52,035 nt of DNA from Actinomycetota bacterium (GTDB lineage Bacteria > Actinomycetota > Acidimicrobiia > Acidimicrobiales > JAJPHE01), in the NCBI GenBank assembly GCA_027315345.1, contig DAHUYE010000089.1, forward strand, positions 1 through 52,035. The letters run 5' to 3'. Below, piece after piece: positions 27,928-43,969 of the stretch; within the stretch, counting starts at the first letter, position 1; each line of letters begins with the position of its first letter. Position numbers and translations under genes: made by a program. A model generated the notes under the pieces. It was not told the origin of the DNA, searched no databases, and saw nothing but the letters and a program-made list of their open reading frames with translations.

Positions 27928-29369
27928 GAACCTCCGAGAGCCGCTTTGAGGACGGCGAGGGTGATCGGCCCGGCTACGGAATCACCCGTGGCCGAGGTGA
28001 CCTGGTTGGGTACGGCCACTGCCACCACGATCCTGGGGGCGTTGGCCGGGGCGAAGGCGACCATCCAGTCATCGGTGCTGTGATGACCGGTCTGGGCCGT
28101 TCCGGTCTTGGCCGCCACCTTGACGCCCGGAATGACGACGTCGGCGGCTGTGCCGTTGCCCTGGGTCACCAGTTCCATCATGCTGGTGACCTGGGCGGCA
28201 GTGGCGGCCGAGGTTGGGTGCAGCCATGCCTTCGGGTTGTAGCTCTCCAACACATTTCCCTGCTGGTCGGTGACCCGGGCCATGACGTGGGGAGTCATCA
28301 TCGTCCCACCGTCGGCGATGGTCTCGCCCACCAGTGCCATCTGCAGCGGTGTGGCGGTGACCACGTCCTGGCCGATGGCGGCGTAGGCCAGGAGAGGCTC
28401 CTGCTGGCTGAAGAAGGAGGCGGCCGGAAAGGTCGAGGCGGCCACCCCGGGCAGGTCGATGGGGGGATACTGGTTGAACCCGAAGGCAGAGGCCTCTTCG
28501 GACATGTTGGAAGCGCCCAGGTCCAGGCCGACCTGGCCGAAGCCGGTGTCGCAGGAGACCTGAAGCAGCTGCGGGAGCAGGCCCCCGCAGGTTTCATAGT
28601 TGTAGTTGTGCAGTTTGTTGGTGGTCTGAGGCAGGCTGATGGAACTCACGGTCGGATACTGCTTCTGGGCCAGGGCCGGGTCGTGGTCGAACACCGCCGA
28701 GGAGACGACGATCTTGTAGGTCGAGCCGGGTGGATAGGTCTGCCGGTAGGACCGGGGCAGCATGGGATTGCTCGGGTTGAGGGTGTAGAGGCCCCAGGCG
28801 TTGCGTTCATCGTTGGCGTTGTGCGAGGCCAGGGGACTCGGGTCGTAGGTCGGGTTGGCGTACATGGCCAGGATGGCCCCGGTGGTCGGGTCCATGGCGA
28901 TGACCGCCCCCGTCTTACCGGCCAGGGCGTTGGCGGCCGTCGTCTGCAGCTTGTTGGACAGGGTGAGAGTGACGTTGCCGACCACGTTGGTGTTGGAGAA
29001 AAGCTGCTTGATGCTGCGCAGGGGGAGGTTCTTACCGGTGAGCACGTTGTTGTAGGTGGCTTCCACGCCCCCGCCCACGCCGTAGATGAACGAGTCGTAT
29101 CCGGTAATGCCGGCGAAGAGACCCCCCGTCGGGTACTGCCTCTGATACTTGAGGTCATCTTTGCTCGGTACCGAACGGGCCACCACCACCCCGTCCGAGG
29201 TCTGGATGAAGCCTCGGGGCTTGGAGTAGTCGGCCGTCAGGTTCCTTGAGTTGCCCGGGGCGTTGGCCAGCTTGGATGCCTCCACCACCTGGATGTAGTT
29301 GAGCTGGAGGAACAGAGCCGCGAAGCACACCATCAGGGCGATGCCCAGGCCCATGATGCGCCGGTTCAT
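27924..29369 (-). CDS. pbpA: Class B penicillin-binding protein (PbpA type)
   Basis: The protein has 481 residues. An N-terminal anchor (IMGLGIALMVCFAALFLQL) is followed by the dimerisation part and the transpeptidase domain with YPPGSTYKIV (active Ser in STYK), QVSCDTGFG (SxD-type second motif, where SxN is usual) and VAAKTGTAQTG (KTG). It cross-links peptidoglycan and in actinobacteria is placed at poles or septa. It overlaps both PstP and PknB by four bases, so the three are coupled. The partner glycosyltransferase RodA/FtsW, normally encoded between PstP and PbpA, is not here. Confidence 0.92.
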   Translation of the reverse strand: MNRRIMGLGIALMVCFAALFLQLNYIQVVEASKLANAPGNSRNLTADYSKPRGFIQTSDGVVVARSVPSKDDLKYQRQYPTGGLFAGITGYDSFIYGVGGGVEATYNNVLTGKNLPLRSIKQLFSNTNVVGNVTLTLSNKLQTTAANALAGKTGAVIAMDPTTGAILAMYANPTYDPSPLASHNANDERNAWGLYTLNPSNPMLPRSYRQTYPPGSTYKIVVSSAVFDHDPALAQKQYPTVSSISLPQTTNKLHNYNYETCGGLLPQLLQVSCDTGFGQVGLDLGASNMSEEASAFGFNQYPPIDLPGVAASTFPAASFFSQQEPLLAYAAIGQDVVTATPLQMALVGETIADGGTMMTPHVMARVTDQQGNVLESYNPKAWLHPTSAATAAQVTSMMELVTQGNGTAADVVIPGVKVAAKTGTAQTGHHSTDDWMVAFAPANAPRIVVAVAVPNQVTSATGDSVAGPITLAVLKAALGGS

Positions 29370-30640
29370 GGGGCCACCGTGGTGGTGCTGGGCGTGGTGG
29401 TGCTGGGGGTGGTGGCGCTGGGCGTGGTGGTGGTCGTGGTCGGGCTGGGGGTGGCCGCCTCATAGGCGCTGACCAGGTTGGCCACGTACTGATGAGCGCT
29501 GGCCAGGGACGGCTCCTCCATGCCCGACTGCAGCTGGGGCAGAGAAGAGGAGAGCACCTGGGCCGTGGTGACGTCGGTGCGCTGGCTGACGGTGGGCTTG
29601 AGCCATAGGACCCCACCCGGACGACCCTTGAAGATGGTGACCTGGGTGCCCTCCAGACCGACGTAGTAGCCACCCCGGGCGTACCAGACGACGGCCCCGA
29701 CGGCCCCGCCCAGCACCACGATCAGGGCCACCACGAAAGCCGCCACCCGGAGCGTCACCCGGCGGCGCTTCACCACCGGGACCAGGCCGGTGACCTCCCG
29801 AGCCGTCGGGGGCGGGACCACCGGGGCCGGCGCCACCGGCTGGACCGGCGCCACCGGCTGGACTGGCGCCACCGGCTGGACCGGCGCCACCGGGGCGGGT
29901 CCAACCTCGGTGACCGAGGAGTCGACCACGTCCAGGAGGACGACGGTCACGTTGTCCGAGCCGCCGTGGTCGAGGGCGGTGGCGACCAGTCGGTCCACTG
30001 TGGCCTGGGTCGGCCCGCCCTCCCGGAGGATGGCGGCGATGGCGGCGTCGTCGACTTCGTCGATGAGGCCGTCCGAGCAGAGCAGGAACCGGTCGCCCGG
30101 GGCCGGGGTGATGTCCCAGGTGTCCACCCTGACCTCGGACTCCATCCCGAGGACCCGGGTCACCACGTGGCGATAGGGGTGGTGGGCGGCTTCCTCCCGG
30201 GAGATGAGCCCGTCCCGGACCATCTCCTCCACCTGACTGTGGTCCACCGACAGTTGGCTCAACTCGCCCTCTCGTAGCAGGTAGGTCCGGGAGTCCCCCA
30301 CATTGGCCACGATGAGCTGGTCCCGGTCGTCGGCATCGAGGCGGGCGATGGCGGTGATGGTGGTGGCCATACCGGTCAGCTCCGGATCCGAGCCGGCCTT
30401 CTCCCAGACCGCCCGGTTGGCCTCCTCGATCACAGCCGCAAGCGGCCTTTCCCGGCCCGGGTCGAACTGGCTGGCGATGACGTCGACAGCGACACCGGCG
30501 GCAACTTCGCCGCCGGCATGGCCGCCGACCCCGTCGGCCACCGCCCAGACCCGGTCGGTGACCAGGTAGCGGTCCTCGTTGTTGGTTCGGCCCGGATTGC
30601 GCCCCACGTGGGTGGCGGCGCCGACGCTCAGTTCGATCAA
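29366..30640 (-). CDS. pstP: PP2C-type Ser/Thr protein phosphatase PstP
   Basis: The protein has 424 residues. The metal-binding motifs VWAVADGVGGHAGGE and LCSDGLIDEV and the GGSDNVTVVLLDV end of the catalytic domain are intact. A proline-rich linker with tandem PVAPVQ units precedes one membrane helix (VAAFVVALIVVLGGAVGAVV). The exterior part has about 90 residues and a Thr-rich tail. PstP removes phosphate from PknB and its substrates. The start is TTG (MIELSVGAATHVG); a TAAGGT hexamer lies about 40 bases upstream. It is first in the PstP-PbpA-PknB unit. Confidence 0.92.
   Translation of the reverse strand: MIELSVGAATHVGRNPGRTNNEDRYLVTDRVWAVADGVGGHAGGEVAAGVAVDVIASQFDPGRERPLAAVIEEANRAVWEKAGSDPELTGMATTITAIARLDADDRDQLIVANVGDSRTYLLREGELSQLSVDHSQVEEMVRDGLISREEAAHHPYRHVVTRVLGMESEVRVDTWDITPAPGDRFLLCSDGLIDEVDDAAIAAILREGGPTQATVDRLVATALDHGGSDNVTVVLLDVVDSSVTEVGPAPVAPVQPVAPVQPVAPVQPVAPAPVVPPPTAREVTGLVPVVKRRRVTLRVAAFVVALIVVLGGAVGAVVWYARGGYYVGLEGTQVTIFKGRPGGVLWLKPTVSQRTDVTTAQVLSSSLPQLQSGMEEPSLASAHQYVANLVSAYEAATPSPTTTTTTPSATTPSTTTPSTTTVAP
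29820..29893. repeat. Tandem 18-base repeat in pstP
   Basis: About four copies of an 18-base unit encode the PVAPVQ repeats of the PstP linker. The copies are nearly identical, so length variation between strains is likely. Confidence 0.75.
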
Positions 30641-30679
30641 GCCGGACCGCGCTTGAGCCGTTGCCGTCCCATATTGAGG

Positions 30680-30693
30680 CGAACCTTACCCAG
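30680..30693 (-). promoter_or_regulatory. Shared 14-base motif upstream of pstP
   Basis: The minus strand reads CTGGGTAAGGTTCG, which contains a TAAGGT -10-like hexamer. The identical 14 bases occur upstream of fhaA at 34565-34578. It lies about 40 bases before the pstP start. Confidence 0.5.
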
Positions 30694-30724
30694 AGAGGCG
30701 CAATTCGGCTCCCTCCGGCCTGGG

Positions 30725-30730
30725 TATAGA
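30725..30730 (+). promoter_or_regulatory. -10 element of the third kinase gene
   Basis: TATAGA with a seven-base gap to the ATG at 30738 favours that start over the TTG one codon upstream. Confidence 0.35.
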
Positions 30731-30737
30731 CCGGTTG

Positions 30738-32258
30738 ATGGGGACCGAGGCTGCACCAGCCATCAAACTGACCGGGATGTCCCCTGACCAACCTCCGTCC
30801 CCGCCCCCGGCGCCGGCCCCCATGATCGGCCGTTACCGGCTCGGGACCACTCTGGGTTCGGGGGGCATGGCGGAGGTGTTCCGAGCCGAGGACACCCGGC
30901 TGTCCCGGGTGGTGGCGCTCAAGGTTCTGCGCCCTGCACTGGCTGCCGATACGACCTTCCGAGCCCGATTCGAATCGGAGGCCCGGGCGGCGGCCGCCCT
31001 GGCTCACCCCAACGTGGTGTCCATCTTCGATGTGGGCGAGGAGGAAGACGGGCGGCCTTACATCGTCATGGAGCTGGTCGAAGGCGGGAACCTGGCCGAG
31101 CGAGCCGCCCGGCAGCCTCTGGTCACGGCCGAGGCGGCCGGCCTGATGCAGGGAGTGCTCAGCGGGCTGGGGGCTGCTCATGATGCCGGTCTGCTCCACC
31201 GGGACATCAAGCCCGGCAACATCCTCCTGACCCGGGACGGGACGGCCAAGGTGGCCGACTTCGGCATCGCCAAGGCCCTGACCGAGAGCCGGGGGGCTCT
31301 GGACCTGACCGGCACCAGCCTGGTCCTGGGCACGCCCCGATACCTGGCCCCGGAGCGGGCCATGGGCCAGCCCGCCACCGTCCAGTCCGACCTGTGGGCG
31401 GCAGGGGTGGTGCTCTACGAGCTGGTGGCCGGCCAACCTCCTTACCCGGGGTCCACCGCCTTCGAGTTGGTGGCGGCGGCCCAGTCCGGTCAGGTGGCCA
31501 CCCCGCCCTCCAGCCTCACGCCGGCCGATCTGGCCGTCCTGGACGTGGCCATCCGGGCCATGGATCCGGACCCCGCCCAGCGGTTCGTCTCCGCCGCGGC
31601 CATGGCCTCGGAGCTGGCCGCCGCCGCGCCAATGGCCGCGGTCGACACGGCCCTAGCCGAGACGGCCACGGCCATCCCGCCAGCCCCGACCGTTGCCTAC
31701 GGCCCCGGCTCCCGTCCACCCGGGCCCACGCCACCCGGTCCTCTGAACCGGCACTGGCGCCTGACCGCTCTTCTGGTGGCGGTGCTGTTGGTCGTCATCC
31801 TGGTCATGATCCTCGCCCTGGGATCGGGTTCCCCCCAGGCTCCGGTGCGGACCACGTCCACGACGCGGGCGGCTCCGACCACCTCCACCACGGCCGCTCC
31901 GACACCGGCCACGGCCTTGGCCAACCTGGTCCGGGATGCCACCGCCGGGGAGACATCGGGCGCGGTTGATCAGGGCAGTGCCCAGAACATCATCAACCAG
32001 GCCCAGCAGGCTGTGACCGACTCCGCCGCCGGCAGGTCCTCCCAGGCCGCCAACGATCTCCAACAGGCCGCCATGACCATTTCCCAGGGCCTCCAGCGCG
32101 GGTCCATCACCGGGGCGGCGGCCACCCTGCTCCAACAGGACCTGACCGCCCTGGCCGACGTCCTGGGCCTGGGAGCGGCGGCCACCCCGCCGGCCACGGC
32201 TCCGCCCGGCCCGGGCGGGGGCCACGGGGCGGGCAAGCCGGGCAAGGGCGACGGCTAA
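30738..32258 (+). CDS. Ser/Thr protein kinase with helical exterior domain
   Basis: The protein has about 506 residues. The proline-rich start (PPSPPPAPAPMI) precedes a kinase domain with GSGGMAEVFRAED, VALKVLRP, LLHRDIKPGNILL, VADFGIAKALTES and GTPRYLAPERAMG. One membrane helix (LTALLVAVLLVVILVMILAL) is followed by a Thr/Ala linker and a helical, Gln-rich exterior (IINQAQQAVTDSAAGRSSQA and onward) ending GGGHGAGKPGKG. The exterior has no PASTA repeats, so the signal sensed differs from that of PknB. It is divergent from pstP and takes the place that pknA has in other actinobacteria only loosely; I do not name it pknA. Confidence 0.88.
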   Translation: MGTEAAPAIKLTGMSPDQPPSPPPAPAPMIGRYRLGTTLGSGGMAEVFRAEDTRLSRVVALKVLRPALAADTTFRARFESEARAAAALAHPNVVSIFDVGEEEDGRPYIVMELVEGGNLAERAARQPLVTAEAAGLMQGVLSGLGAAHDAGLLHRDIKPGNILLTRDGTAKVADFGIAKALTESRGALDLTGTSLVLGTPRYLAPERAMGQPATVQSDLWAAGVVLYELVAGQPPYPGSTAFELVAAAQSGQVATPPSSLTPADLAVLDVAIRAMDPDPAQRFVSAAAMASELAAAAPMAAVDTALAETATAIPPAPTVAYGPGSRPPGPTPPGPLNRHWRLTALLVAVLLVVILVMILALGSGSPQAPVRTTSTTRAAPTTSTTAAPTPATALANLVRDATAGETSGAVDQGSAQNIINQAQQAVTDSAAGRSSQAANDLQQAAMTISQGLQRGSITGAAATLLQQDLTALADVLGLGAAATPPATAPPGPGGGHGAGKPGKGDG

Positions 32259-33369: not shown

Positions 33370-33882
33370 CTAGCCCTGGGGCGCCGCGACCTCCAGGACG
33401 GTGCGGCCGACCTGGACCCGGTCCCCGGGCCTCAGCCCGGTGGCGGCCGAGATGGCCTGGCCGTTCACCTGGGTTCCGTTGGTGGAGCCGAGGTCCTCGA
33501 CCCACAGGCGGCCGGCGTCGACCCACAGCCGGGCGTGACGGGAGGACGTGAAGCTGTCACCGGGCAGGGCGATATCGGCACCGGCGGCCCGCCCGACGGT
33601 GATCTCCCGGTCAACGCTGAAGCTGGCTCCGGCGTGGTCGGGGCCCTCGACCACCCGAACGGCCGGGGGCCCGGTCGCCGGGGCGGCGGCCGTGGCCCGA
33701 GTGGGGGCGGCCGAGGCGACGGCGGGTTGGGCCGCCGGCCGGACCCCCGGCCCCGCCGGTACGGCCGGGCCGAGATCCCGGGCCCGCAGGTCAACCCATT
33801 GGGCCCGCAGGACACGCAGGAAGAACAGCCAGATGAGGGCCAGGAGAAAGAACTTGAGGACGGTCAGGATCGGTTCGGACAT
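33370..33882 (-). CDS. fhaB: FHA-domain membrane protein FhaB (FipA type)
   Basis: The protein has 170 residues. An N-terminal membrane helix (VLKFFLLALIWLFFLRVL) is followed by an Ala/Pro linker and an FHA domain with ITVGRAAGADIALPGD, FTSSRHARLW and EDLGSTNGTQVNG, which contain the Arg, Ser-Arg-His and Asn residues that bind phosphothreonine. In actinobacteria FhaB/FipA recruits phosphorylated division proteins to the septum. It follows FhaA by 21 bases and is cotranscribed. The FHA fold is complete. Confidence 0.92.
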   Translation of the reverse strand: MSEPILTVLKFFLLALIWLFFLRVLRAQWVDLRARDLGPAVPAGPGVRPAAQPAVASAAPTRATAAAPATGPPAVRVVEGPDHAGASFSVDREITVGRAAGADIALPGDSFTSSRHARLWVDAGRLWVEDLGSTNGTQVNGQAISAATGLRPGDRVQVGRTVLEVAAPQG

Positions 33883-33903
33883 CGCTCCCTCAGGTCAACT
33901 CGA

Positions 33904-34557
33904 TCAGATCAGCTCGTAGCGCAGGGCGGTGGCGCCGATGGTCACCTCGTCCCCGTCGGACAGGGGCACCTCGCTGACCTGTACCCCGTTGACCAGGGTC
34001 CCATTGGTCGAGCCCAGGTCGACCAATATCACCGCCCCGTCCCGCCGGACCAGCTCGGCATGGCGCCGGCTGACGTTGGGGTCATTTACGACCACCGCCG
34101 ACTCGGGCAGGCGCCCGATGGTCAGGGGCTGGTCGCCCATGGTCACCCGGTGCCCGTCGGGCAGCACCAGGCTGGGGGTCATCCCCCCGGCTCCCGACTC
34201 GGTCCGGGCGCCCACCCGGAAGACCCCCGGGCTGAGGGAGGGGTCCGAGGTCATCTCCACCACCACCGAACCCAGGAACCGGTAGCCCTCCTCCCGGGCG
34301 TGTTCCCGGGCTCCTTCGGCCAGTTCCTGGGTCAGGGCCTCCCCGAAGGCCTCGAACCGCTCGGCATCCTGGGGGGACAATTCGATCACGAAGTGGTTGG
34401 GGGCGACCAAGCCCCTGACCCCGACCGTGCGCTCCAGGTCCATCTCCCGGGTCATCCGCCGGCCCAGTTCCACCGGCTGGAGGCCGCCCCGGGAGGCGCG
34501 GGCGAAGACCCCTTCGACGAGTTGCTCGAGCCTGCGCTCGAAGGCCTGGAGTCCCAT
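33904..34557 (-). CDS. fhaA: FHA-domain protein FhaA
   Basis: The protein has about 217 residues starting MGLQAFERRLEQLVEGVFAR. Residues 1-115 form the DUF3662-type domain (RMTREMDLERTVGVRGLVAP, FVIELSPQD, YRFLGSVVVEM). The C-terminal FHA domain has LTIGRLPESAVVVNDPNVSR followed by RHAEL, and DLGSTNGTLVNGVQV. FhaA of mycobacteria has a long disordered linker and over 500 residues; this copy is a compact form without it. It binds threonine-phosphorylated partners such as MviN and links PknB signalling to wall synthesis. A TAAGGT hexamer lies ten bases upstream. Confidence 0.9.
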   Translation of the reverse strand: MGLQAFERRLEQLVEGVFARASRGGLQPVELGRRMTREMDLERTVGVRGLVAPNHFVIELSPQDAERFEAFGEALTQELAEGAREHAREEGYRFLGSVVVEMTSDPSLSPGVFRVGARTESGAGGMTPSLVLPDGHRVTMGDQPLTIGRLPESAVVVNDPNVSRRHAELVRRDGAVILVDLGSTNGTLVNGVQVSEVPLSDGDEVTIGATALRYELI

Positions 34558-34564
34558 AGTCAGC

Positions 34565-34578
34565 CGAACCTTACCCAG
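34565..34578 (-). promoter_or_regulatory. Shared 14-base motif upstream of fhaA
   Basis: This is identical to the motif before pstP (CTGGGTAAGGTTCG on the minus strand). The contained TAAGGT is ten bases before the fhaA ATG, suiting a -10 element with a very short leader. Confidence 0.5.
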
Positions 34579-34623
34579 GGGGTCCCCGGACAGTCCCGCG
34601 CCCACTACCCTGTCGCCACTCGA

Positions 34624-34710
<87 letters not shown>

Positions 34711-34848: not shown

Positions 34849-36588
34849 CTAGACGAGGGCAGCCGGCCGGCCGAAGAGGTAACCCTGGGCCTTGTCGCAG
34901 CCCATCTGGCGGAGGGCGAGCATCTGCTCTTCGGTCTCCACCCCCTCGGCAATGACCAGCTTGCCCAGGCGGTGGGCCAGGTCCACCACCGTGGCCAGCA
35001 CCTCGAACTCGCCGCGGCCCGGGCCGTCCAGGGCGGAGACGAAAGCCCGGTCGATCTTGATCTCCGCCGCCGGCAGCCGGCAGAGATAGGCCAGGGACGA
35101 GTAGCCCGTACCGAAGTCGTCGATGGACAGCCGGACGCCGAGGTCGGACAGGGCGTGGAGAGTGTTGAGGCAGGCCTCCACGTCGTGCATGAGGGTGGTC
35201 TCGGTTACCTCCAGGACCAGCCCCTCGGGGGCCAGTCCGCTCTCGGCCAGGCTGCGTTCGACCAGGCGCACCAGATCGTGGTGGGCCAGCTGGGCGGCGG
35301 ACAGATTCACGCTGACGGTGGCCGCGCTCTGTCCGGACCGGCGCCAGGCGGCTGCACCCCGGCAGGCCTCGCCCAGGGCCCAGCTGCCCAGAGCCACGAT
35401 CAAGCCGGTCTGCTCGGCCAGGGGGATGAACTCGGGGGCACCCAGCAGGCCGCGGACCGGATGCTGCCAGCGCAGCAGCGCTTCGGCCCCGACCTGGCAG
35501 AGGCTGTCCAGGGCAACTATCGGCTGGTAGTGGAGGCGGAGCTCGGCGTTGTGGAGAGCCAGGCGGAGTGAGGTCTCCTCCTGGGGATCCAGGTGCCCGG
35601 AGCGGCCGTCGCAGAGGGTGATCTCGAAGCGGTCCTTGCCCGCCCGCTTGGCCCGGTACATGGCGGCGTCGGCCAGGCGCAGTATGACATCGGCCTCCTC
35701 GGGGCACTCTCCTATCCGGACCACCGACACCCCGATGCTGGCGGTGAGGAAGAGGGGGTGGCCGGCCAGCTCGAAGGATGGATCGAGGGCCGTTTCCAGC
35801 CGGCGCACGATCGAGAGCACGTCATCGGGAGACGAAAGGTCGATGCAGAGGGCACAGAACTCGTCTCCGCCCAGGCGGGCCAGGGTGTCCTCGGGGCGGA
35901 GGGCGGTGGAGAGGCGGTGGGCCACCTCCTTGAGGACCGAGTCCCCCACGGCGTGGCCGTAGCCGTCGTTGATGGCCTTGAAGCCATCGAGGTCGACGAA
36001 GAACACGGCTACGCAGTTGCCCCGGCGGGTGGTGCGGACCAGTGACCGATCCAGCCGGTCCATGAACAGGGCCCGGTTGGGCAGGCCGGTGAGCCCGTCA
36101 TGCATGGCTTGGTGGGCCAGCTGGGACTCGAGGTGCTTGCGCTCGATGGCGTAGCGGATGGAGCGGATGAGCAGGGCCGAGTCCAGCTTGGACTTGGGCA
36201 GGTAGTCCTGGGCCCCCTGCTGAACGCAGGTCAGGGCCACGTCCTCATCTATGCGCCCGGACAGGACCACCACTGGAACGTGGGGGGCGACATCGCGGAG
36301 GGCCTGGAGGGCTTCGAGGCCCACGGCGTCGGGAAGGGAGAGGTCGAGCAGGGCGCAGTCGGCCACGGCCGCATCCAGCACGGTCACCTGGCCCAGGCGG
36401 GTCCGGTGCTCCAGGGCGAAATCGGAGTCACCCTCAGCGAGGAGGGCGGTGACCAGGCGGGCGTGAGCCGGGTTGTCCTCCACCAGGAGGATGTTGCCCA
36501 GCCGGGTCGGGCGGCCCACCTGCGTGACGGGCTCGGGGACGGAGCCATCGGTGTCGTCCAGGGCGACGGCTTCAGCCTGTATCACCAT
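34849..36588 (-). CDS. Response regulator with GGDEF and EAL domains (c-di-GMP enzyme)
   Basis: The protein has 579 residues. The receiver domain (about 20-140) has NILLVEDNPAHARLV, phosphoacceptor Asp in CALLDLSLPD, and YLPKSKLD with the conserved Lys. The GGDEF domain (about 155-315) retains LARLGGDEFCAL, so diguanylate cyclase activity is likely. The EAL domain (about 330-575) retains EALLRWQHP, DDFGTGYSS and IAEGVETEEQ, so phosphodiesterase activity is also possible. The ATG overlaps the stop of the histidine kinase by seven bases, so that kinase is the probable phosphodonor. Which activity dominates cannot be read from the sequence. Confidence 0.93.
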   Translation of the reverse strand: MVIQAEAVALDDTDGSVPEPVTQVGRPTRLGNILLVEDNPAHARLVTALLAEGDSDFALEHRTRLGQVTVLDAAVADCALLDLSLPDAVGLEALQALRDVAPHVPVVVLSGRIDEDVALTCVQQGAQDYLPKSKLDSALLIRSIRYAIERKHLESQLAHQAMHDGLTGLPNRALFMDRLDRSLVRTTRRGNCVAVFFVDLDGFKAINDGYGHAVGDSVLKEVAHRLSTALRPEDTLARLGGDEFCALCIDLSSPDDVLSIVRRLETALDPSFELAGHPLFLTASIGVSVVRIGECPEEADVILRLADAAMYRAKRAGKDRFEITLCDGRSGHLDPQEETSLRLALHNAELRLHYQPIVALDSLCQVGAEALLRWQHPVRGLLGAPEFIPLAEQTGLIVALGSWALGEACRGAAAWRRSGQSAATVSVNLSAAQLAHHDLVRLVERSLAESGLAPEGLVLEVTETTLMHDVEACLNTLHALSDLGVRLSIDDFGTGYSSLAYLCRLPAAEIKIDRAFVSALDGPGRGEFEVLATVVDLAHRLGKLVIAEGVETEEQMLALRQMGCDKAQGYLFGRPAALV

Positions 36589-37346
36589 GGCGACGTTCCC
36601 AGGGTCACGATGACGGCGGTGCCGCCCAGGTCGCTCTCCTCGATCCTGATGCCGCCGCCGTGCCGTTCGGCTATGGCCCGGCACTGAGCCAGCCCGACTC
36701 CGAAACCCGGGCGGGTGGTGTCGGTCCGCACGAACATGTCGAAGACCCGGGCCCGGTAGGCGGGCTCGATTCCGATGCCGTTGTCGGCCACGGCGATCTG
36801 GCTGACCCCGTCGAGATGGCGCGAGCTGACCCGGATGTGGGGGGCCACGCCATCGCGGCGGAACTTGATGGCGTTGGACAGCAGTTGGCGCAGGAGAAGG
36901 TCGAGGAGGCTCGGGTCGGCGCTGACCCGGGCCCCTTCGACCGTCTGGATGACGGCTCCGCTGTTGTCGATCGATGCCGTCAATGCAACCGACGCCCGCC
37001 CGACGGCTGATTCCAGGTCGATGAGTTCCAGGCTGGGCTCGATGGATCCGAGCCGGGCCTGGTCCACCACCCCCTCGATGCGCCCGACCATGTCGGCGGT
37101 GCACTGAAGGCACCACTCCACCAACTCGGCCCCTTCGGGGCCGAGCGAATCGGCGTAGCGGCGCTGGAGCAGACGCAGAAACCCGGTCACCGACGACAGT
37201 GGCTCCATAAGGTCATGGGCCATCACCGCCACCAGCTCCCCCGCCTTCCTCTCAGGAGGCAGCGAGGAGGCGGGGGGCTGGGCGGCGGTAGGCTCACGGG
37301 CCGGCTGGCCGGTCGGGTCTTGGATGGCGGTGGTGGTGAGGCTCAT
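36582..37346 (-). CDS. Cytoplasmic histidine kinase without sensor domain
   Basis: The protein has 254 residues. A 40-residue Pro/Ala-rich start leads to the H-box LVAVMAHDLMEPLSSV (phospho-His), then the second DHp helix. The ATPase domain has LLSNAIKFR (N-box), VADNGIGIEPAYRAR (G1) and GFGVGLAQCRAIAE (G2). There are no membrane or PAS segments, so its input must come through a partner protein. It is coupled to the REC-GGDEF-EAL gene downstream and lies 45 bases after the DUF916-type gene, whose cytoplasmic tail is a candidate partner. Confidence 0.9.
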   Translation of the reverse strand: MSLTTTAIQDPTGQPAREPTAAQPPASSLPPERKAGELVAVMAHDLMEPLSSVTGFLRLLQRRYADSLGPEGAELVEWCLQCTADMVGRIEGVVDQARLGSIEPSLELIDLESAVGRASVALTASIDNSGAVIQTVEGARVSADPSLLDLLLRQLLSNAIKFRRDGVAPHIRVSSRHLDGVSQIAVADNGIGIEPAYRARVFDMFVRTDTTRPGFGVGLAQCRAIAERHGGGIRIEESDLGGTAVIVTLGTSPW

Positions 37347-37391
37347 GGCGTCGTCCCGTCCCTTCTGGGTCTGACTCGGCTCTGGGGGGCC

Positions 37392-39056
37392 TCAGCCCAC
37401 CGGCTGGTTCGGCTTGCGAGTCCTCGGGGTGGCGGCTTTGGCGGCCGGCTTGGCGGCGGTGGCCACGGTCGCCCGACCCCTCGTCTTGGTGGCCGGGGCT
37501 GCGCCGGCGGGCTTGGTCACCGGTCCCTTGGGGCGTGAGGCGTTCCCTCGGGGACCGGCGCTGAACTCCCCGACAGCGCCGGTCCCCTTGGAGATGAGTC
37601 GGGACCGCTGGGGCCCCGACAGCTTGGTCAGGCGGGGATTGGCCTGGATGCGTTCGGCCGGGTAGTCGGCCAGGGCATTCATGATCTTGGGGGTGCGCCC
37701 GTTGGCCACCGGCACCGACTCCAACAGGGCGTCGAGGGCGTCCCCGCCGGCCTCGTGAAGGGCGACGGCCAGCTCGGGCAGTGTCTCGAGGTGTCCCGTC
37801 CGCCGGGCCCGCTTGATGGCTGTCTCCATTGCCGCGACCGCCGCCGACTTGTCCTCGGCCTTGACCGGCGTGGTCCGGGTGGTGGCCGGCTGCATCGTGT
37901 CCGTGTCCTCCTCATCATCGAGGTGGCGAGCGACGTCGGGCTGGCTGACAGCCATGCCGGGCCGCTGCAGGACCATCTGCTCGAGTCTGCGCAGGTCGGC
38001 CCGCAGGCGCTTCGACTTGCGGACCCGGGCCCGAGCCAGCCGGTAGAGGCCGAAGATCAGGAGGCAGAGGGCCAGCAGGATGCCGAGCAGGCCGTAGGGG
38101 ATCACAAACTGGGAGTGGGAGACCGACTTGGACAGCCAGGAGTAGTTGGTCTTCACCACCACGTTCTCGTTCACCGGGCCGCCGTAGATGGGCACCGGCA
38201 CCTTGGCCGTGTAGATCTCGGTGGACTTGGCCAGGATCACCGCCGAGCCGGCCGCCTTCACTCCACCGATGGTCACTTTGGTGTCGAGGCGGATGCGCCC
38301 GGTGTTGTCCACCGGCACGCTCACCAGTGAGTAGTTGGGAAGCAGCGTCGAGTTGAGTTTCGGGGTGATGCGCCCGATCTGGAAGGACTTGGTAGCGATG
38401 CCGGGCACGGTGACGTAGAAGCGCACGGCCACGACCTTGACGACTCGGAGCGACTTCGAGCCCGGAAGCGATTCAGTCTCCGAGGTGGCCGTCACCACTC
38501 CGAAGTGGTCGCCCGGCTCGGCGCTGTTGGGCGCGTGGACCTGGAAGGGAACCAGGACCGACTGCCGCGGTCCTACCGTCACCGAGGCCTCATCGAAGTG
38601 GGCCCAGCTGCCCACATCGGTCTGGCGTCCGTGGTTGATGGACGGAGTCCCGTTGGGGGAGAACAGGAGATCGGCTATGCCGAGAGTGACGGTCTGGGCC
38701 ACCGGGGCCGGGTTGGTGATCTTGGCCTCCGATGAGGCGGACTGGCCCGGCTTGAGACTGAAGTAGAACCACTGGCCGCCATCCGGATCGGAAGGGGTGG
38801 TGTTGGTCGGCGTGACCGTCACCGACTCGATGTCCTGGAGGAGGGTGGTGGCGGTGGCGCCGCCCTGGCCGGCGGCGGAAGCGGCGGGCTGGGTGCTGGC
38901 CGCCGGCGTACCGGGGGTAGTGGCTCCGGCGGGAGCGGCTCCGAGAAGGGCCCAGCTGGAAACTGCGATGACGAGAGAGGCTCCAGCCGAGCACACCGCC
39001 TCGAAGACGGTGTGCCGGCTGGCGCTACGAATGCGACGTGGGGAGTTGGAGTTCAT
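37392..39056 (-). CDS. DUF916-type membrane protein with long cytoplasmic basic tail
   Basis: The protein has 554 residues. A signal peptide (VCSAGASLVIAVSSWALLGA, cleavage near AGATTPG) is followed by an exterior part of about 265 residues. Its beta domains (FYFSLKPGQSASSEAKITNP, SVLVPFQVHAPNSAEPGDHF, VRFYVTVPG) match WxL-interacting DUF916-type proteins. A membrane helix (YGLLGILLALCLLIFGLYRL) follows. About 200 cytoplasmic residues come next, a charged part, a helical part (AVAAMETAIKRARRTGHLET), and a final 50 residues rich in Lys, Ala and Pro (KPAAKAATPRTRK) like a histone-H1 tail. A ribosome site AGGA lies upstream. It follows the WxL-like gene by 13 bases. Confidence 0.75.
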   Translation of the reverse strand: MNSNSPRRIRSASRHTVFEAVCSAGASLVIAVSSWALLGAAPAGATTPGTPAASTQPAASAAGQGGATATTLLQDIESVTVTPTNTTPSDPDGGQWFYFSLKPGQSASSEAKITNPAPVAQTVTLGIADLLFSPNGTPSINHGRQTDVGSWAHFDEASVTVGPRQSVLVPFQVHAPNSAEPGDHFGVVTATSETESLPGSKSLRVVKVVAVRFYVTVPGIATKSFQIGRITPKLNSTLLPNYSLVSVPVDNTGRIRLDTKVTIGGVKAAGSAVILAKSTEIYTAKVPVPIYGGPVNENVVVKTNYSWLSKSVSHSQFVIPYGLLGILLALCLLIFGLYRLARARVRKSKRLRADLRRLEQMVLQRPGMAVSQPDVARHLDDEEDTDTMQPATTRTTPVKAEDKSAAVAAMETAIKRARRTGHLETLPELAVALHEAGGDALDALLESVPVANGRTPKIMNALADYPAERIQANPRLTKLSGPQRSRLISKGTGAVGEFSAGPRGNASRPKGPVTKPAGAAPATKTRGRATVATAAKPAAKAATPRTRKPNQPVG

Positions 39057-39069
39057 CGGTTATCGATCC

Positions 39070-39648
39070 TCAGGTGAACAGGGTGACGGTCAGGGTGGCC
39101 GTGTACGGGCTGGTGGCACCGGCGGCGACCGTGCCGTTCGGCGGTGTCAGGGTCAGCGTGCTGCTGTTGGTGTAGGTGCCCGTGTACAGGGTGCCGGTGA
39201 GCTCACCGGTGTTGGTGAAGAAGGTCTGGGCGGCATCCAGTGCTCCGGCGGCGCCCTCGGCGATGGTTCCGCCTCCGCCCACGACAGTGGTGGCATTGCC
39301 GCTGTTGGCCAGGGCGCTGGCGGGGATGATGTTCGGTGTCGTGCCGCCGGTGCTGAACTGGCTCACCTGGCCGGTCACGTACCAGTTGGCGTCACCGGCG
39401 ATGGCAGCCTCGGCCACTACGACCCCGAGGGGGGATGTCATGGTGGTGTTGCCGAGGATCGAAGTGAAGCTGCCCGGCGAAACCGACTGGATGGCCCGGG
39501 TACCGATGCTCCCGGCGGTCAGAGTTGCCGACAGGGTCGCTGTCGATGTCCCGCTGGCGGTGGCCGCAAAGCCGGTTCCTGGTGTGAACGCTACGAGTGC
39601 CCCGCCCATCCCCAGCGCAAGCAGAACCCCACTAAGTCGCCTACGCAT
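39070..39648 (-). CDS. Secreted WxL-like surface protein
   Basis: The protein has 192 residues starting MRRRLSGVLLALGMGGALVA. A signal peptide ends near TGFAATAS. The mature part is Ser/Thr/Gly-rich beta sequence. NWYVTGQVSQF and a C-terminal SPYTATLTVTLFT resemble the two halves of the WxL domain, which binds peptidoglycan non-covalently in Firmicutes. The ribosome site AAGGGAG is eight bases before the ATG, and this excludes the upstream in-frame start. Pairing with the adjacent DUF916-type gene supports the assignment. The exact W-x-L motif is degenerate (WYV, TLF). Confidence 0.65.
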   Translation of the reverse strand: MRRRLSGVLLALGMGGALVAFTPGTGFAATASGTSTATLSATLTAGSIGTRAIQSVSPGSFTSILGNTTMTSPLGVVVAEAAIAGDANWYVTGQVSQFSTGGTTPNIIPASALANSGNATTVVGGGGTIAEGAAGALDAAQTFFTNTGELTGTLYTGTYTNSSTLTLTPPNGTVAAGATSPYTATLTVTLFT

Positions 39649-39666
39649 TTCATTTTCTCCCTTCGG

Positions 39667-39701
39667 AGTGTTCAAGTCACGTTCAGCCTCTGCCGAACAC
39701 T
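39667..39701. promoter_or_regulatory. Inverted repeat upstream of the WxL-like gene
   Basis: AGTGTTC and GAACACT are separated by 21 bases and lie 18 to 53 bases before the WxL-like start. The 240-base gap up to the sensor kinase stop also has GGTCATGACC (39786-39795). It is the likely promoter and control region of the WxL-DUF916-kinase series. Confidence 0.4.
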
Positions 39702-39888
39702 GAGCGTTATAAGCCCGAAGCGGTCGGTGACGTAACGACTAGGACGGGGCATATCTGTATCCGCATAACTGACGATGCGGTCTGTGGTCATGACCATGTC
39801 GTCATCCATCTGGCGGACTAGTCAAGATTTCGGCCCGGTTGACAGGCGGCCTCTGACGCCGTGGCCTGGTTAGGTCACGCTGGGCGTT

Positions 39889-41484
39889 TCAGCCGGTCGG
39901 GGCGACCTTCAATCTGATGCGGAATTCGGCGCCAACGGGATGATTCGGTACAGCCCGAATGGACCCCCCCATTCGGGCGAGCAACTGACTGCTGATGAAG
40001 AGCCCCATGCCCACTCCACCCTCATCGTGAACCCGCGCTTCGGGGGACTCGGACTGGGTGAGCATCTCGAAAATTCTCCGGCTGTTGCGCCACCGCCCGG
40101 CCGGAAGCCCGACACCTTGGTCCCGGATGATCACCTCGACCCGCCGACCGCGACGCCGCGCCTCGACCTCGACCGGCCCCCCGGCCGGTGAGTATTTGAC
40201 CGCGTTCTCGATGACATGACCGAGCACCTGGTCGAGGGCGTCCGGGTCCCCGAGGACGGTCAGGCCCTCCTCGGCGTGCAGCTGGATGTGGTGAATCGGG
40301 GAGAGGGCCTGATGGTGTTCGATCACCCGTTCCAGATGGCGGTTGATGCCGACCGGCTGACGGCCCACGGACGGCGCGACTCCCGCCTCCAGCTGGGCCC
40401 CGGTCAGAAGTCGTTCCACCAGGTGCTCGAGGAGCTGGGCCTGCTGTCCGATGGAGTCGATCAGCTCCCGGCGCTGCGCCTCGGGCAGGCGTCCCCCGGC
40501 GCTGGTCAGCAGCTGGCTGAAGCCCCGGATGGTGGTCAACGGCGTGCGCAGTTCGTGCCCGGCGATGGTGAGGAAGGACCGCTTGGCCACTTCGACCTTC
40601 CGGGCCAGGCGGACCCGATCCAGCTCCGACAGCAGGATCACCAGGACCAGCAGCAGGAGGATGGCGGAGGCAGGAAAGACCGTTGCCCGCCAGGGGGAGT
40701 CGGCCGGCTGGGTCCAGGTGCTCAGCGGTTGGCTGACAGCCATCGTCCAGCCCCATCCGGCCGAGCTGTAGGCCACGGCCAGCCGGGCGCCACCCTCCCC
40801 GGAGAGGTCGGCCAGGCCCGACCCGCCGGCTGCGGCTCTGGCCATGGCGGCGGTGTACTGGGGCTCGGGCGGCACCCCGAGGGTGGGTAGGACGGTGGGG
40901 CTGACGACGTCTCCGGCCGGGTCGAGCAGGGCCAGGTTCGCTCCGGGAGCCCCCACCAGCCGGGCCAAGGTTCGGCCCAGGCTTCCCGACGGCAGCGTCG
41001 AACGGCCGACCAGGGTTCCTCCGCCCGGGCCGGGGATGGCGAGGCGAACCACCACGTCGGTGCTGTGCTGAAGGTTGTCGGCCGCCACCGTTACCGATCC
41101 CAGTCCCGGAGGAGGCGCTCCGTAGGTCCGGACCAGGCCGACCAGGTCGGCGTCGTTCGAGTCGGCGGCCACCACCACCCCGGCCGGGCTGGTCACGAAG
41201 ACGCCGTGGTCGAGGTCATCGGCTCCGGCCAGGCCCCGGTCCAGAACGGCCGGCGCCGACCCGAGCTGTGAGCCCGAGCCCGTCCAGGGCGCCAACTGGG
41301 CGGCCAGGCCGGCCATCTGGCCCACGGTGGTGGACAGCCACGTCGAAACGGCCGCGGCATCGGCTCTGACCAGGGCGACCCGGGCGGCACTGCGCTGGGC
41401 GGTCAGGGCCGCATCGGCCTGCCTGACCTGCTGGGAGATCCACAGCCAGGAGCCGGCCCCGGCCGCCCCGGCCAGGACCACCAC
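39889..41484 (-). CDS. Sensor histidine kinase with exterior sensing domain
   Basis: The protein has 531 residues. A first membrane segment at the very N-terminus (MVVLAGAAGAGSWLWI) and a second near residue 275 (TVFPASAILLLLVLVILL) bracket an exterior sensor of about 250 residues of Cache type (VFVTSPAGVVVAAD, GWGWTMAVSQPLS). Then come H-box IAGHELRTPLTTIRGF, N-box HVIENAVKYS, G1 RDQGVGLPAGR and G2 GVGMGLFISSQLLA. The GTG start leaves a short first membrane segment; a true start slightly upstream in the region after the response regulator stop is possible. It pairs with the single-receiver gene 35 bases upstream. Confidence 0.9.
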   Translation of the reverse strand: MVVLAGAAGAGSWLWISQQVRQADAALTAQRSAARVALVRADAAAVSTWLSTTVGQMAGLAAQLAPWTGSGSQLGSAPAVLDRGLAGADDLDHGVFVTSPAGVVVAADSNDADLVGLVRTYGAPPPGLGSVTVAADNLQHSTDVVVRLAIPGPGGGTLVGRSTLPSGSLGRTLARLVGAPGANLALLDPAGDVVSPTVLPTLGVPPEPQYTAAMARAAAGGSGLADLSGEGGARLAVAYSSAGWGWTMAVSQPLSTWTQPADSPWRATVFPASAILLLLVLVILLSELDRVRLARKVEVAKRSFLTIAGHELRTPLTTIRGFSQLLTSAGGRLPEAQRRELIDSIGQQAQLLEHLVERLLTGAQLEAGVAPSVGRQPVGINRHLERVIEHHQALSPIHHIQLHAEEGLTVLGDPDALDQVLGHVIENAVKYSPAGGPVEVEARRRGRRVEVIIRDQGVGLPAGRWRNSRRIFEMLTQSESPEARVHDEGGVGMGLFISSQLLARMGGSIRAVPNHPVGAEFRIRLKVAPTG

Positions 41485-41519
41485 CAGAACGGCGGAGAGG
41501 ACGGCTCGGCGGGGCGCGG

Positions 41520-41891
41520 TCAGGCTCCGGTCAGCAACCGATCGAGCAGGTCGACGAGGTCGTCCGGGTCGAAGGGCTTCTTGACGTACTCATCGGCCCC
41601 GGCGGCCTTTCCGGCGTCGATGTCGTCCATGCCGGTCCGGGCCGAGACCAGGACGACGGGGATGGCCTTGGTGGCCGGATCGGCTTTGAGCCGGCGGGCT
41701 ACCTCGAGTCCGTCGATGCCGGGCATCATCACGTCCAACAGGACTACGTCGGGGTGGGTGGCGGCGGCCTGGTTGAGGCCCTCCTGCCCGTTGGAAGCCG
41801 TGACCACCTCGAAGCCGGCCCGCTCCAGGATCATCGACTGGAGCTTGACGATCATGGCATCGTCGTCCACGACCAGGGCTCGTCTGGTCAT
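41520..41891 (-). CDS. Single-domain response regulator
   Basis: The protein has 123 residues and only a receiver domain: RRALVVDDDAMIVKL (acidic pocket), VVLLDVMMPGIDG (phospho-Asp), VVLVSARTG (Thr/Ser switch) and EYVKKPFDPDDL (Lys). It lacks an output domain, so it acts by protein contact or as a phosphotransfer step, like CheY/DivK. It precedes the sensor kinase on the same strand and is its probable partner. Confidence 0.93.
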   Translation of the reverse strand: MTRRALVVDDDAMIVKLQSMILERAGFEVVTASNGQEGLNQAAATHPDVVLLDVMMPGIDGLEVARRLKADPATKAIPVVLVSARTGMDDIDAGKAAGADEYVKKPFDPDDLVDLLDRLLTGA

Positions 41892-43168: not shown

Positions 43169-43651
43169 ATGCCTGAGTTGCTCGAGCGGGACGAGTTCCG
43201 GATCAACCTGACTCTCCAACTGCCGCGGGACCGGGTCAGCATCCCGGTGGTCCGCCACCTGACCCGGGACGCCCTGGTGGAGGTGGGGGTGGTCGGAAAC
43301 ATCCGGGACGACGTCGAGCTGGCCGTGACCGAGGCCTGCGCCAATGTCCTGGATCACGCTGGTAATGGAGATGCCTATGACGTCGTAGTCTCGGTGGGAG
43401 GCCGGACGTGTGAAATCCGGGTGGTCGACGTTGGGAGGGGCTTCGACTACGAGAGTCTTTCCGGGAACGAGATTCGGACCGACGATGAAAGTGGTCGTGG
43501 CATCGCGCTCATGCGCGCTCTCATGGATACGGTGCGGTTCAGTTCCGAACCTGAACGCGGCACGATCGTCCACCTCGTAAAGGGCCTCGACTTCGATGAC
43601 GCTTCCCCCGCCCGACGACTTCTGCAGCCGGACCCCGCCCCAGGGGAGTGA
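43169..43651 (+). CDS. RsbW-like ATP-binding protein (HATPase)
   Basis: The protein has 160 residues. INLTLQLPRDRVSIPVVRHL begins the fold. The N-box is DDVELAVTEACANVLDHAG, G1 is VVDVGRGFD, and ESGRGIALMRALMD is the ATP-lid glycine motif. This is the anti-sigma-factor kinase type (RsbW/SpoIIAB). It lacks a DHp domain. The next gene starts three bases after its stop and encodes just a DHp-like hairpin, so the two may form one split kinase; alternatively this protein controls a sigma factor or anti-sigma antagonist elsewhere. Confidence 0.85.
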   Translation: MPELLERDEFRINLTLQLPRDRVSIPVVRHLTRDALVEVGVVGNIRDDVELAVTEACANVLDHAGNGDAYDVVVSVGGRTCEIRVVDVGRGFDYESLSGNEIRTDDESGRGIALMRALMDTVRFSSEPERGTIVHLVKGLDFDDASPARRLLQPDPAPGE

Positions 43652-43654
43652 CGG

Positions 43655-43969
43655 GTGAATCCGGCCGGCGGAGGCGCTGAGTTCCCGGCCGGAGGGCAGG
43701 CCTGGGATGCCGATGAGTCCGATGCGGCCATGGCCGTCATCGCCCACGGGCTGCTCAACTCGGTCAGCGCCATCCAGATGGGCGCCTACGCCCTGCGGGA
43801 GTCATGGGCCCAGATGACCGATGAGCAACGGGACCAGGTCCTCGGCATCGTGGCCGACCAGGCCGCCCACGTCCGGGGCATCCTCCAGGACATGATCCGG
43901 GGTCTGCCCAGCGATGTCATCCGGGCCCTCAACGGCCTGGAGCGCCGGCCCGAGGAGCCGATGGGCTGA
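43655..43969 (+). CDS. DHp-only histidine-kinase-like protein
   Basis: The protein has 104 residues. MAVIAHGLLNSVSAIQMGAY contains a His in an H-box-like context, and the second helix is DQVLGIVADQAAHVRGILQD. This is the two-helix dimerisation/phosphotransfer part of a histidine kinase, followed by GLPSDVIRAL and a short tail. No ATPase domain follows. The GTG start lies three bases after the HATPase stop, so the two are made together. It could be a phosphoacceptor for that HATPase or a scaffold for other kinases. Confidence 0.7.
   Translation: MNPAGGGAEFPAGGQAWDADESDAAMAVIAHGLLNSVSAIQMGAYALRESWAQMTDEQRDQVLGIVADQAAHVRGILQDMIRGLPSDVIRALNGLERRPEEPMG

Follow-up and report, generated by a model that had tools for sequence, protein, structure and literature searches.

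The stretch of DNA analysed here (the window) is the whole of contig DAHUYE010000089.1, 52,035 nucleotides long, and belongs to a 3.84-Mb, 106-contig genome of an Actinomycetota bacterium of the order Acidimicrobiales (assembly GCA_027315345.1). It holds a run of six genes, read from 41891 down to 34849 and all on the minus strand, in which a presumed surface protein pair stands in line with genes for phosphotransfer and cyclic diguanylate (c-di-GMP) signalling. In the order of reading these are a response regulator (RR1), a histidine kinase (HK1), a small WxL-like protein, its DUF916-type partner (WxLIP), a second histidine kinase (HK2) and a protein with receiver (REC), GGDEF and EAL domains (Table 1). 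The spacers measure 35 bases between RR1 and HK1, 240 between HK1 and the WxL-like gene, 13 between the latter and wxlip, and 45 between wxlip and HK2, and the REC-GGDEF-EAL gene overlaps the stop of HK2 by 7 bases (ATGGTGA). The same six genes, with their strand and places, had been described in an earlier note on this DNA, and that description is confirmed, spacers and overlap included. Genes were taken from our own calls of open reading frames (ORFs), in which starts and small overlaps are approximate. For the WxL-like gene, the sequence indicates ATG 39648, preceded by GGGAG, as the most likely start, and a TTG-start ORF extends to 39675.

The 240-base gap has a GC content of 0.56 compared with 0.65-0.71 in the surrounding 2-kb windows, and therefore the genes from the WxL-like one onward may form a transcript of their own. 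The sole sigma-70-type match between 34600 and 42500 lies upstream of RR1, at 42337-42310. No terminator-like site was found in this same interval, and neither a consensus promoter nor an Rfam riboswitch was found in the 240-base spacer.

Table 1. Genes of the six-gene run and its longest spacer, in order of reading (window positions).
Feature	Position	Strand	Evidence
RR1, single-domain receiver (response regulator)	41520..41891	-	Pfam Response_reg 101.6 bits; receiver DD, D, K residues by eye
HK1, membrane sensor histidine kinase	39889..41484	-	Pfam HisKA + HATPase_c
240-base spacer, possible promoter region of WxL-WxLIP-HK2-REC-GGDEF-EAL unit	39649..39888	-	GC 0.56
Small WxL-like secreted protein, 192 aa	39070..39648	-	Aligns with other small partners; signal peptide by eye; single W-Y-V; YTATLTVTL at the C-terminus
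WxLIP (DUF916-type) protein, 554 aa	37392..39056	-	Fold match to E. faecium WxLIP; Pfam sub-threshold
HK2, soluble sensorless histidine kinase	36582..37346	-	Pfam HisKA + HATPase_c
REC-GGDEF-EAL, 579 aa	34849..36588	-	Pfam; motif scan

The signalling genes are recognised as two-component members by the HisKA and HATPase_c domains of the kinases and by receivers with the conserved Asp, both by Pfam and by eye; the pairing of HK1 with RR1, and of HK2 with the REC-bearing protein, is putative. RR1 has no DNA-binding domain by Pfam. In HK2 no transmembrane segment was seen by eye and no PAS, GAF or phytochrome input domain was matched by Pfam. A motif scan of the REC-GGDEF-EAL protein found six of seven patterns (RxxD-x5-GGDEF, EALLR, NxSxxQ, DDFGTGYSS, KxD and AEGVE), the seventh being unmatched. 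With the I-site of GGDEF and the signature motifs of EAL kept, it is a predicted bifunctional c-di-GMP enzyme.

The identity of the surface pair requires more care. Pfam WxLIP_PGBD scores the DUF916-type protein at 17.4 bits, under the cut-off of 27.3, and matches 6 of its 30 aligned relatives (E<=0.01). An AlphaFold model, built with 29 relatives, has a mean confidence (pLDDT) of 63, with ten-residue blocks between 101 and 220 at 66-94. When this model was searched with Foldseek, the top three matches were all to the WxLIP of E. faecium (E 3.7e-11; entries 9i1y and 9i25), and VIA likewise placed E. faecium WxLIP first (Z 15.2, root-mean-square deviation 6.9, 230 aligned residues), ahead of pilus chaperones (Z 12.8). 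It is the modelled fold of the ectodomain only that points to WxLIP: a profile of the WxLIP proteins, compared with solved structures, gave one sequence match, to TLP-IPT (21nr_A, E 2.4e-5), and no WxLIP entry, and the corresponding WxL profile matched none. The protein starts with a signal peptide, followed by an ectodomain at about 74-321, a helix at 322-364 running into the cytoplasm and a further helical part at 400-494. The C-terminal membrane anchor is seen both as a hydropathy segment at 317-335 and as the model helix. A match of GAF_PdtaS to residues 374-425 of the tail (16.4 bits, E 0.0086, cut-off 23.7) was taken as chance because about half of it lies in 371-399, where pLDDT is under 50.

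The small partner of the window has no Pfam WxL match; nor did a Pfam PF13731 search of its own genome give one. At E<=0.1, Pfam WxL is matched by 4 of 12 aligned small partners, the window protein not being among them. Instead of the dual Trp-x-Leu motif it has one WYV, the second W and the DxRG being absent; a D-x-R before a W is kept in most of the other aligned partners. The Y of the C-terminal YTATLTVTL is invariant in both sets of 12 aligned partners. Its AlphaFold model is uninformative (pLDDT 41) and too poor for a structure search. The two proteins are thus a diverged actinobacterial WxL/WxLIP pair, which has the build of such a pair but is no formal member by Pfam and motif tests. 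The labels WxL-like and DUF916 are weaker than the earlier note has them: in Pfam, WxLIP_PGBD stays under its threshold and the partner goes unmatched, and it is the second label that finds support in the ectodomain fold. The genome also encodes a paralogue of the WxL-like protein (G000:C43, L018:9181-9753), 45-47% identical, with no WxLIP seen over the 20 kb read; near it, at L018:11258-12310, is a gene for a peptidase M23.

A contig search with the window DUF916 protein alone found no relative, and the genome's own family comprises 3 genomes only. Two wider sets were surveyed. The class set comes from a profile search of 395 genomes of the class (E<=1e-8), of which 37 contain WxLIP relatives, the own genome included. 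The named set comes from 280 WxLIP relatives in named genomes, for which the best 78 loci were taken, 77 of them labelled as actinobacterial and one as a Bacillota metagenome-assembled genome (MAG). Neighbourhoods were read for 48 class and 72 named loci. Left out of the counts were six named loci that duplicate class contigs (L159, L165, L171, L179, L198, L212), one locus without a called DUF916 ORF (L096) and the window. Where copies stood in tandem, they were counted as one in the class set and are represented by the longest in the named set. The idea was formed on the window and the class set, and the named set serves as its test. In a tree of 52 WxLIP proteins the window protein forms a long branch (2.13) without firm placement.

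What sets the window WxLIP apart is its cytoplasmic tail of 219 residues, against a named-set median of 15 (83 proteins measured). Most WxLIP proteins end 8-41 residues past the membrane segment, and five in the class set measure 58-88. Tails of more than 100 residues occur in 2 of the 83, both from Acidimicrobiia MAGs (L189 and L191). Over the 40 juxtamembrane residues, the window and L191 align better than all 500 shuffles (z 5), and 13 of 500 shuffles reach the score of the window with L189. The only other long-tailed protein that was seen with signalling neighbours is the class-set fusion in L083 (G252), which has a receiver at its cytoplasmic end (77.3 bits; WxLIP_PGBD 26.2 bits, cut-off 27.3). 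A second WxL/WxLIP pair of the own genome (G000:C99, L250:9017-11385) has a short tail that ends soon after the membrane segment and, over the 20 kb read, no gene for signalling; its neighbours resemble, by look, those in L122, L080 and L027, which suggests an old fixed locus. Long tails are also found in tandem WxLIP pairs (L086, L085, L089, L094), in which the second copy carries 190-242 cytoplasmic residues; those of L086, L089 and L094 do not align with the window tail. By genome, the second-protein tails of tandem pairs without alignment to the window tail are those of G071, G135 and G180, and no signalling gene was found at these loci. The 181-residue tail computed for G170 (L090) is probably an artefact of a missed membrane segment.

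Signalling genes recur beside WxLIP genes. Of the class loci, 9 of 48 have a gene for REC, HK, GGDEF or EAL no more than 1.5 kb away, and of the named loci 11 of 72. A pairing similar to that of the window is present in about a tenth of the related loci read. For c-di-GMP genes in the named set, the zone within 1.5 kb of WxLIP (208 kb in all) holds 9 and the zone at 3-10 kb (732 kb) holds 4, an eight-fold density (p=3.7e-4); in the class set the figures are 4 for 132 kb near the gene and 3 for 423 kb farther out (p=0.06), and two-component genes are enriched there (11 against 6 in the same lengths, p=4e-4). Moreover, of the 13 c-di-GMP genes near WxLIP, 11 share its strand (p=0.011). Against the genome-wide GGDEF density (654 in 42 genomes, about 152 Mb), the class set has 4 genes where 1.24 are expected at 3 kb (P 0.035) and 7 against 1.52 at 4 kb (7e-4). 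The GGDEF domains of L022 (23.6 vs 23.8) and L178 (21.4) are under the Pfam cut-off. From these counts, the association of WxL/WxLIP with two-component and c-di-GMP genes appears to be recurrent but facultative, and above chance by most contrasts, not all. The earlier note had held that random neighbours in relatives would speak against a link; overall this is not what is seen, given the local c-di-GMP excess, even if it does hold for many single loci (61 of 72 named and 39 of 48 class loci have no signalling gene within 1.5 kb).

Some individual loci are especially telling. In Nocardioides gansuensis WSJ-1 (L178; class Actinomycetes) a hybrid HK, a REC, an EAL protein with weak GGDEF, WxL, WxLIP, a second WxL and a further EAL gene follow one another, all in line. 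A PAS-EAL ORF overlaps the end of wxlip in Arthrobacter sp. ISL-72 (L200) and Pseudarthrobacter sulfonivorans (L204), and a GGDEF-EAL gene is found 206 bases downstream in Cryobacterium lactosi (L213). In Acidimicrobiaceae BP_115 (L025), WxL and WxLIP are followed by an OmpR-type regulator and a 1580-residue frame with PAS, GGDEF, EAL, REC, HK, REC, REC and Hpt. The fusion locus L083 reads, all in line, OmpR-type regulator, WxL, WxLIP-receiver fusion, second WxL and PAS-GGDEF-EAL. OmpR-type regulators, 41-85% identical over the part formed by REC and the winged helix-turn-helix, adjoin the pair in L025, L060, L062 and L083, and in L061 one is fused to PAS-EAL about 2.5 kb upstream of the pair. 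Beside the regulator and WxLIP of L062 there is also an ice-binding-like protein (L062:5273-6361; PF11999, 208.1 bits), with a homologue in L060 by look. A different arrangement is seen by look in L019, L020, L066, L072, L074, L075 and L077, namely clusters that combine WxLIP with a large WxL-like protein and, in many cases, one more membrane protein, a Csc-like layout found here outside Bacillota.

HK1 offers a further connection. Its closest relatives found are kinases of G426 (187.0 bits) and G427 (197.5 bits), the next-best kinases of these genomes scoring 110 and 98.8 bits; the likeness sits in the kinase part, at 43-45% identity. Among the 395 class genomes, with three candidates scored per genome, a match to HK1 at E<=1e-40 was found only in the own genome. 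In L191 the HK1-related kinase, WxL and the long-tailed WxLIP are consecutive and in the same line. In G427 the related kinase ends at one contig edge and WxL starts at another; L189 lies at a contig edge compatible with this order. A search for the L191 protein covered 10 genomes, of which 2 have it.

WxL/WxLIP complexes have so far been regarded as modules for adhesion or for acquiring sugars, chiefly in lactic-acid bacteria and related groups. Soluble HisKA kinases paired with REC-GGDEF-EAL proteins are a known kind, and LapD is a single membrane protein with degenerate GGDEF-EAL that exerts transmembrane c-di-GMP control of surface adhesins. The Csc/WxL clusters of Bacillota comprise, in the parts of the sources available, a small WxL, a large WxL, a DUF916-DUF3324 WxLIP and an LPxTG protein (PMC1534035, 2006; PMC9772566; PMC10599100). 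The window resembles them in having a small secreted WxL-like gene directly before a WxLIP with signal peptide, ectodomain and C-terminal transmembrane segment, the ectodomain fold matching E. faecium WxLIP. It differs in the sub-cut-off Pfam scores, the missing dual WxL motif, the long cytoplasmic part and the kinases and c-di-GMP enzyme in line; no large WxL or LPxTG gene was recognised in the run and its neighbours. Regulation of Csc has been described, in the portion consulted of PMC1534035, as catabolite control, and the words 'kinase' and 'two-component' are absent from the main text of PMC10599100 and PMC9772566. HK2 with its overlapping REC-GGDEF-EAL gene resembles the soluble kinase pairs, unlike them showing no input domain and having a WxLIP gene where the sensor might be expected. 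Like LapD, the window module would link c-di-GMP inside the cell with a part exposed at the surface; in contrast to LapD, its c-di-GMP protein has a receiver, conserved motifs and no matched membrane domain, so that it does not qualify as a LapD. No description linking WxL or DUF916 to c-di-GMP, a diguanylate cyclase or a histidine kinase was found in the open-licence literature, in agreement with the earlier note, to which no such system was known.

We think that the run may be one module that ties a surface WxL/WxLIP complex to c-di-GMP, a reading that we consider credible while giving it somewhat less than an even chance. The small WxL-like protein would be secreted to the wall and bind the WxLIP ectodomain, as it does in Enterococcus and as fold and pairing suggest here. 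Engagement would then be relayed through the 219-residue cytoplasmic part of WxLIP to HK2, the proposed relay partner. HK2 has no recognised sensor; its gene begins 45 bases after wxlip and shares its end with that of the likely partner. HK2 would phosphorylate the REC-GGDEF-EAL protein, with a consequent shift in c-di-GMP (attached or sessile versus free), and HK1-RR1 would be a second two-component arm, the kinase of which is linked to the WxL/WxLIP pair elsewhere too. What the data show is the gene content, the fold of the WxLIP protein, the kept enzyme motifs and the recurrence of the genetic linkage in other lineages; the contact between tail and kinase, the direction of signalling and the net sign of the c-di-GMP change are all inferred.

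Several results weigh against this module. The six-gene order was seen in no other genome examined (the neighbourhoods read being those of the matched places in 59 relatives and 395 class genomes, with several contigs short); the order that the earlier note had proposed to look for across relatives was seen only in the window. For two-component genes the named set shows no enrichment (p=0.49, with 4 in the near 208 kb and 12 in the farther 732 kb). The c-di-GMP excess is weaker against 60 control stretches (835,515 bases, hand-picked at round positions and contig numbers and not random, one of them, L122, with a WxLIP gene of its own): a c-di-GMP gene is found within 3 kb at 7 of 48 class loci, compared with 6.7% of control positions. 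It is also weaker against genome-wide GGDEF density at 2 kb (3 vs 0.94 expected, P 0.068). Kinship is ignored in all these statistics, and five of the seven class loci that have a c-di-GMP gene no more than 4 kb away (L025, L060, L061, L062, L064) fall in one seven-row clade of the WxLIP tree; L060, L062 and L083 are from one genus, their gene orders, however, being different. The receiver fusion was found in one MAG only, and a 73%-identical orthologue in G238 lacks the receiver (the search of the G252 family covered 3 genomes). Regarding the tail, the whole window sequence aligns with those of L191 and L189 no better than shuffles (74 and 51 of 500 reach the score), and long tails without signalling neighbours are found in the tandem pairs of G071, G135, G160 and G180. 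The sensor parts of HK1 and its relatives align only marginally (31 of 500 shuffles reach the score), and NPCBM_assoc is matched by 12 of the 30 aligned WxLIP relatives, more than WxLIP_PGBD is.

The direction of the link is where another explanation comes closest. Control might run from the inside out, the kinases and the c-di-GMP enzyme deciding on production or display of WxL/WxLIP, either by transcription or through the cytoplasmic part of WxLIP; the WxLIP protein would then serve as effector instead of sensor. We regard this as a serious possibility, if not the favoured one, and nearly as good as signalling from the outside in. In the only fusion found, the domain joined to WxLIP is a receiver, which belongs to the output side; the OmpR-type regulators recur beside the pair (or, in L061, as the PAS-EAL fusion), and in bacteria it is usually c-di-GMP that governs adhesion. 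In the window itself the picture is less favourable to it, with no DNA-binding domain in RR1, no sensor of its own in HK2, the c-di-GMP enzyme downstream of WxLIP in the same run, and the 240-base spacer free of Rfam riboswitches. The proposal of the earlier note, that a wall-bound complex signals into c-di-GMP metabolism, accordingly divides: a functional link of WxL/WxLIP with two-component and c-di-GMP genes is favoured by recurrence, by the fusion and by the HK-WxL-WxLIP order elsewhere, while its inward direction gains less, since the receiver fusion fits the opposite one as well or better.

There might also be no link, two independent two-component/c-di-GMP systems flanking the WxL/WxLIP pair by chance or by a general clustering of surface and regulatory genes. 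The uniqueness of the exact order, the many WxLIP loci without such neighbours and the about two-fold excess at 3 kb over the hand-picked stretches would fit this, but the eight-fold local excess arose in a locus set independent of the idea, and strand agreement, the receiver fusion and the like placement of the HK1 relative in other MAGs also speak for a connection. We think that chance could account for the window itself, at low probability, and is unlikely for the WxLIP family as a whole. Least probable, in our opinion, is a divided run, in which the conserved unit would be HK1 (with or without RR1) plus WxL-WxLIP, and HK2-REC-GGDEF-EAL would be a kinase and regulator pair of its own that merely reads through. 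The place of HK1's closest relative, directly upstream of WxL and the long-tailed WxLIP in L191 and, with a contig break between, in G427 as well, agrees with such a division, as does the modest likeness of HK2 to its eight other matches among 59 relatives (E<=1e-25, 33-37% identical). The spacing does not: the AT-richer gap of 240 bases separates HK1 from WxL, whereas 45 bases lie between WxLIP and HK2.

Beyond the run, an RsbW-like HATPase gene is found at 43169-43651 on the plus strand (79.9 bits), followed after 3 bases by a 104-residue ORF (43655-43969, plus strand) that matches HisKA only weakly (20.2 bits, cut-off 26.9); the pair (43169-43969) is possibly one kinase split over two genes. 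Directly after the module there are FhaB-like and FhaA-like FHA genes (33370-34710) and a tRNA-Leu. Together with kinase-like and phosphatase-like genes seen by look at 26143-32258, the FHA genes resemble the actinobacterial pknB/fha cell-wall locus.

Beyond the window, we tentatively extend the link to the wider group: across actinobacteria, a subset of WxL/WxLIP pairs may form a switch through the membrane by which attachment at the wall or surface is tied to c-di-GMP and phosphorelay signalling, the cytoplasmic part of WxLIP (the tail in the window, the fused receiver in one MAG) being the contact point. We consider this generalisation possible, at clearly less than even probability. If true, it would give some of the numerous GGDEF/EAL proteins of actinobacteria a named input or output at the cell surface, and Nocardioides gansuensis WSJ-1 offers a named strain for joint tests of surface contact and c-di-GMP.

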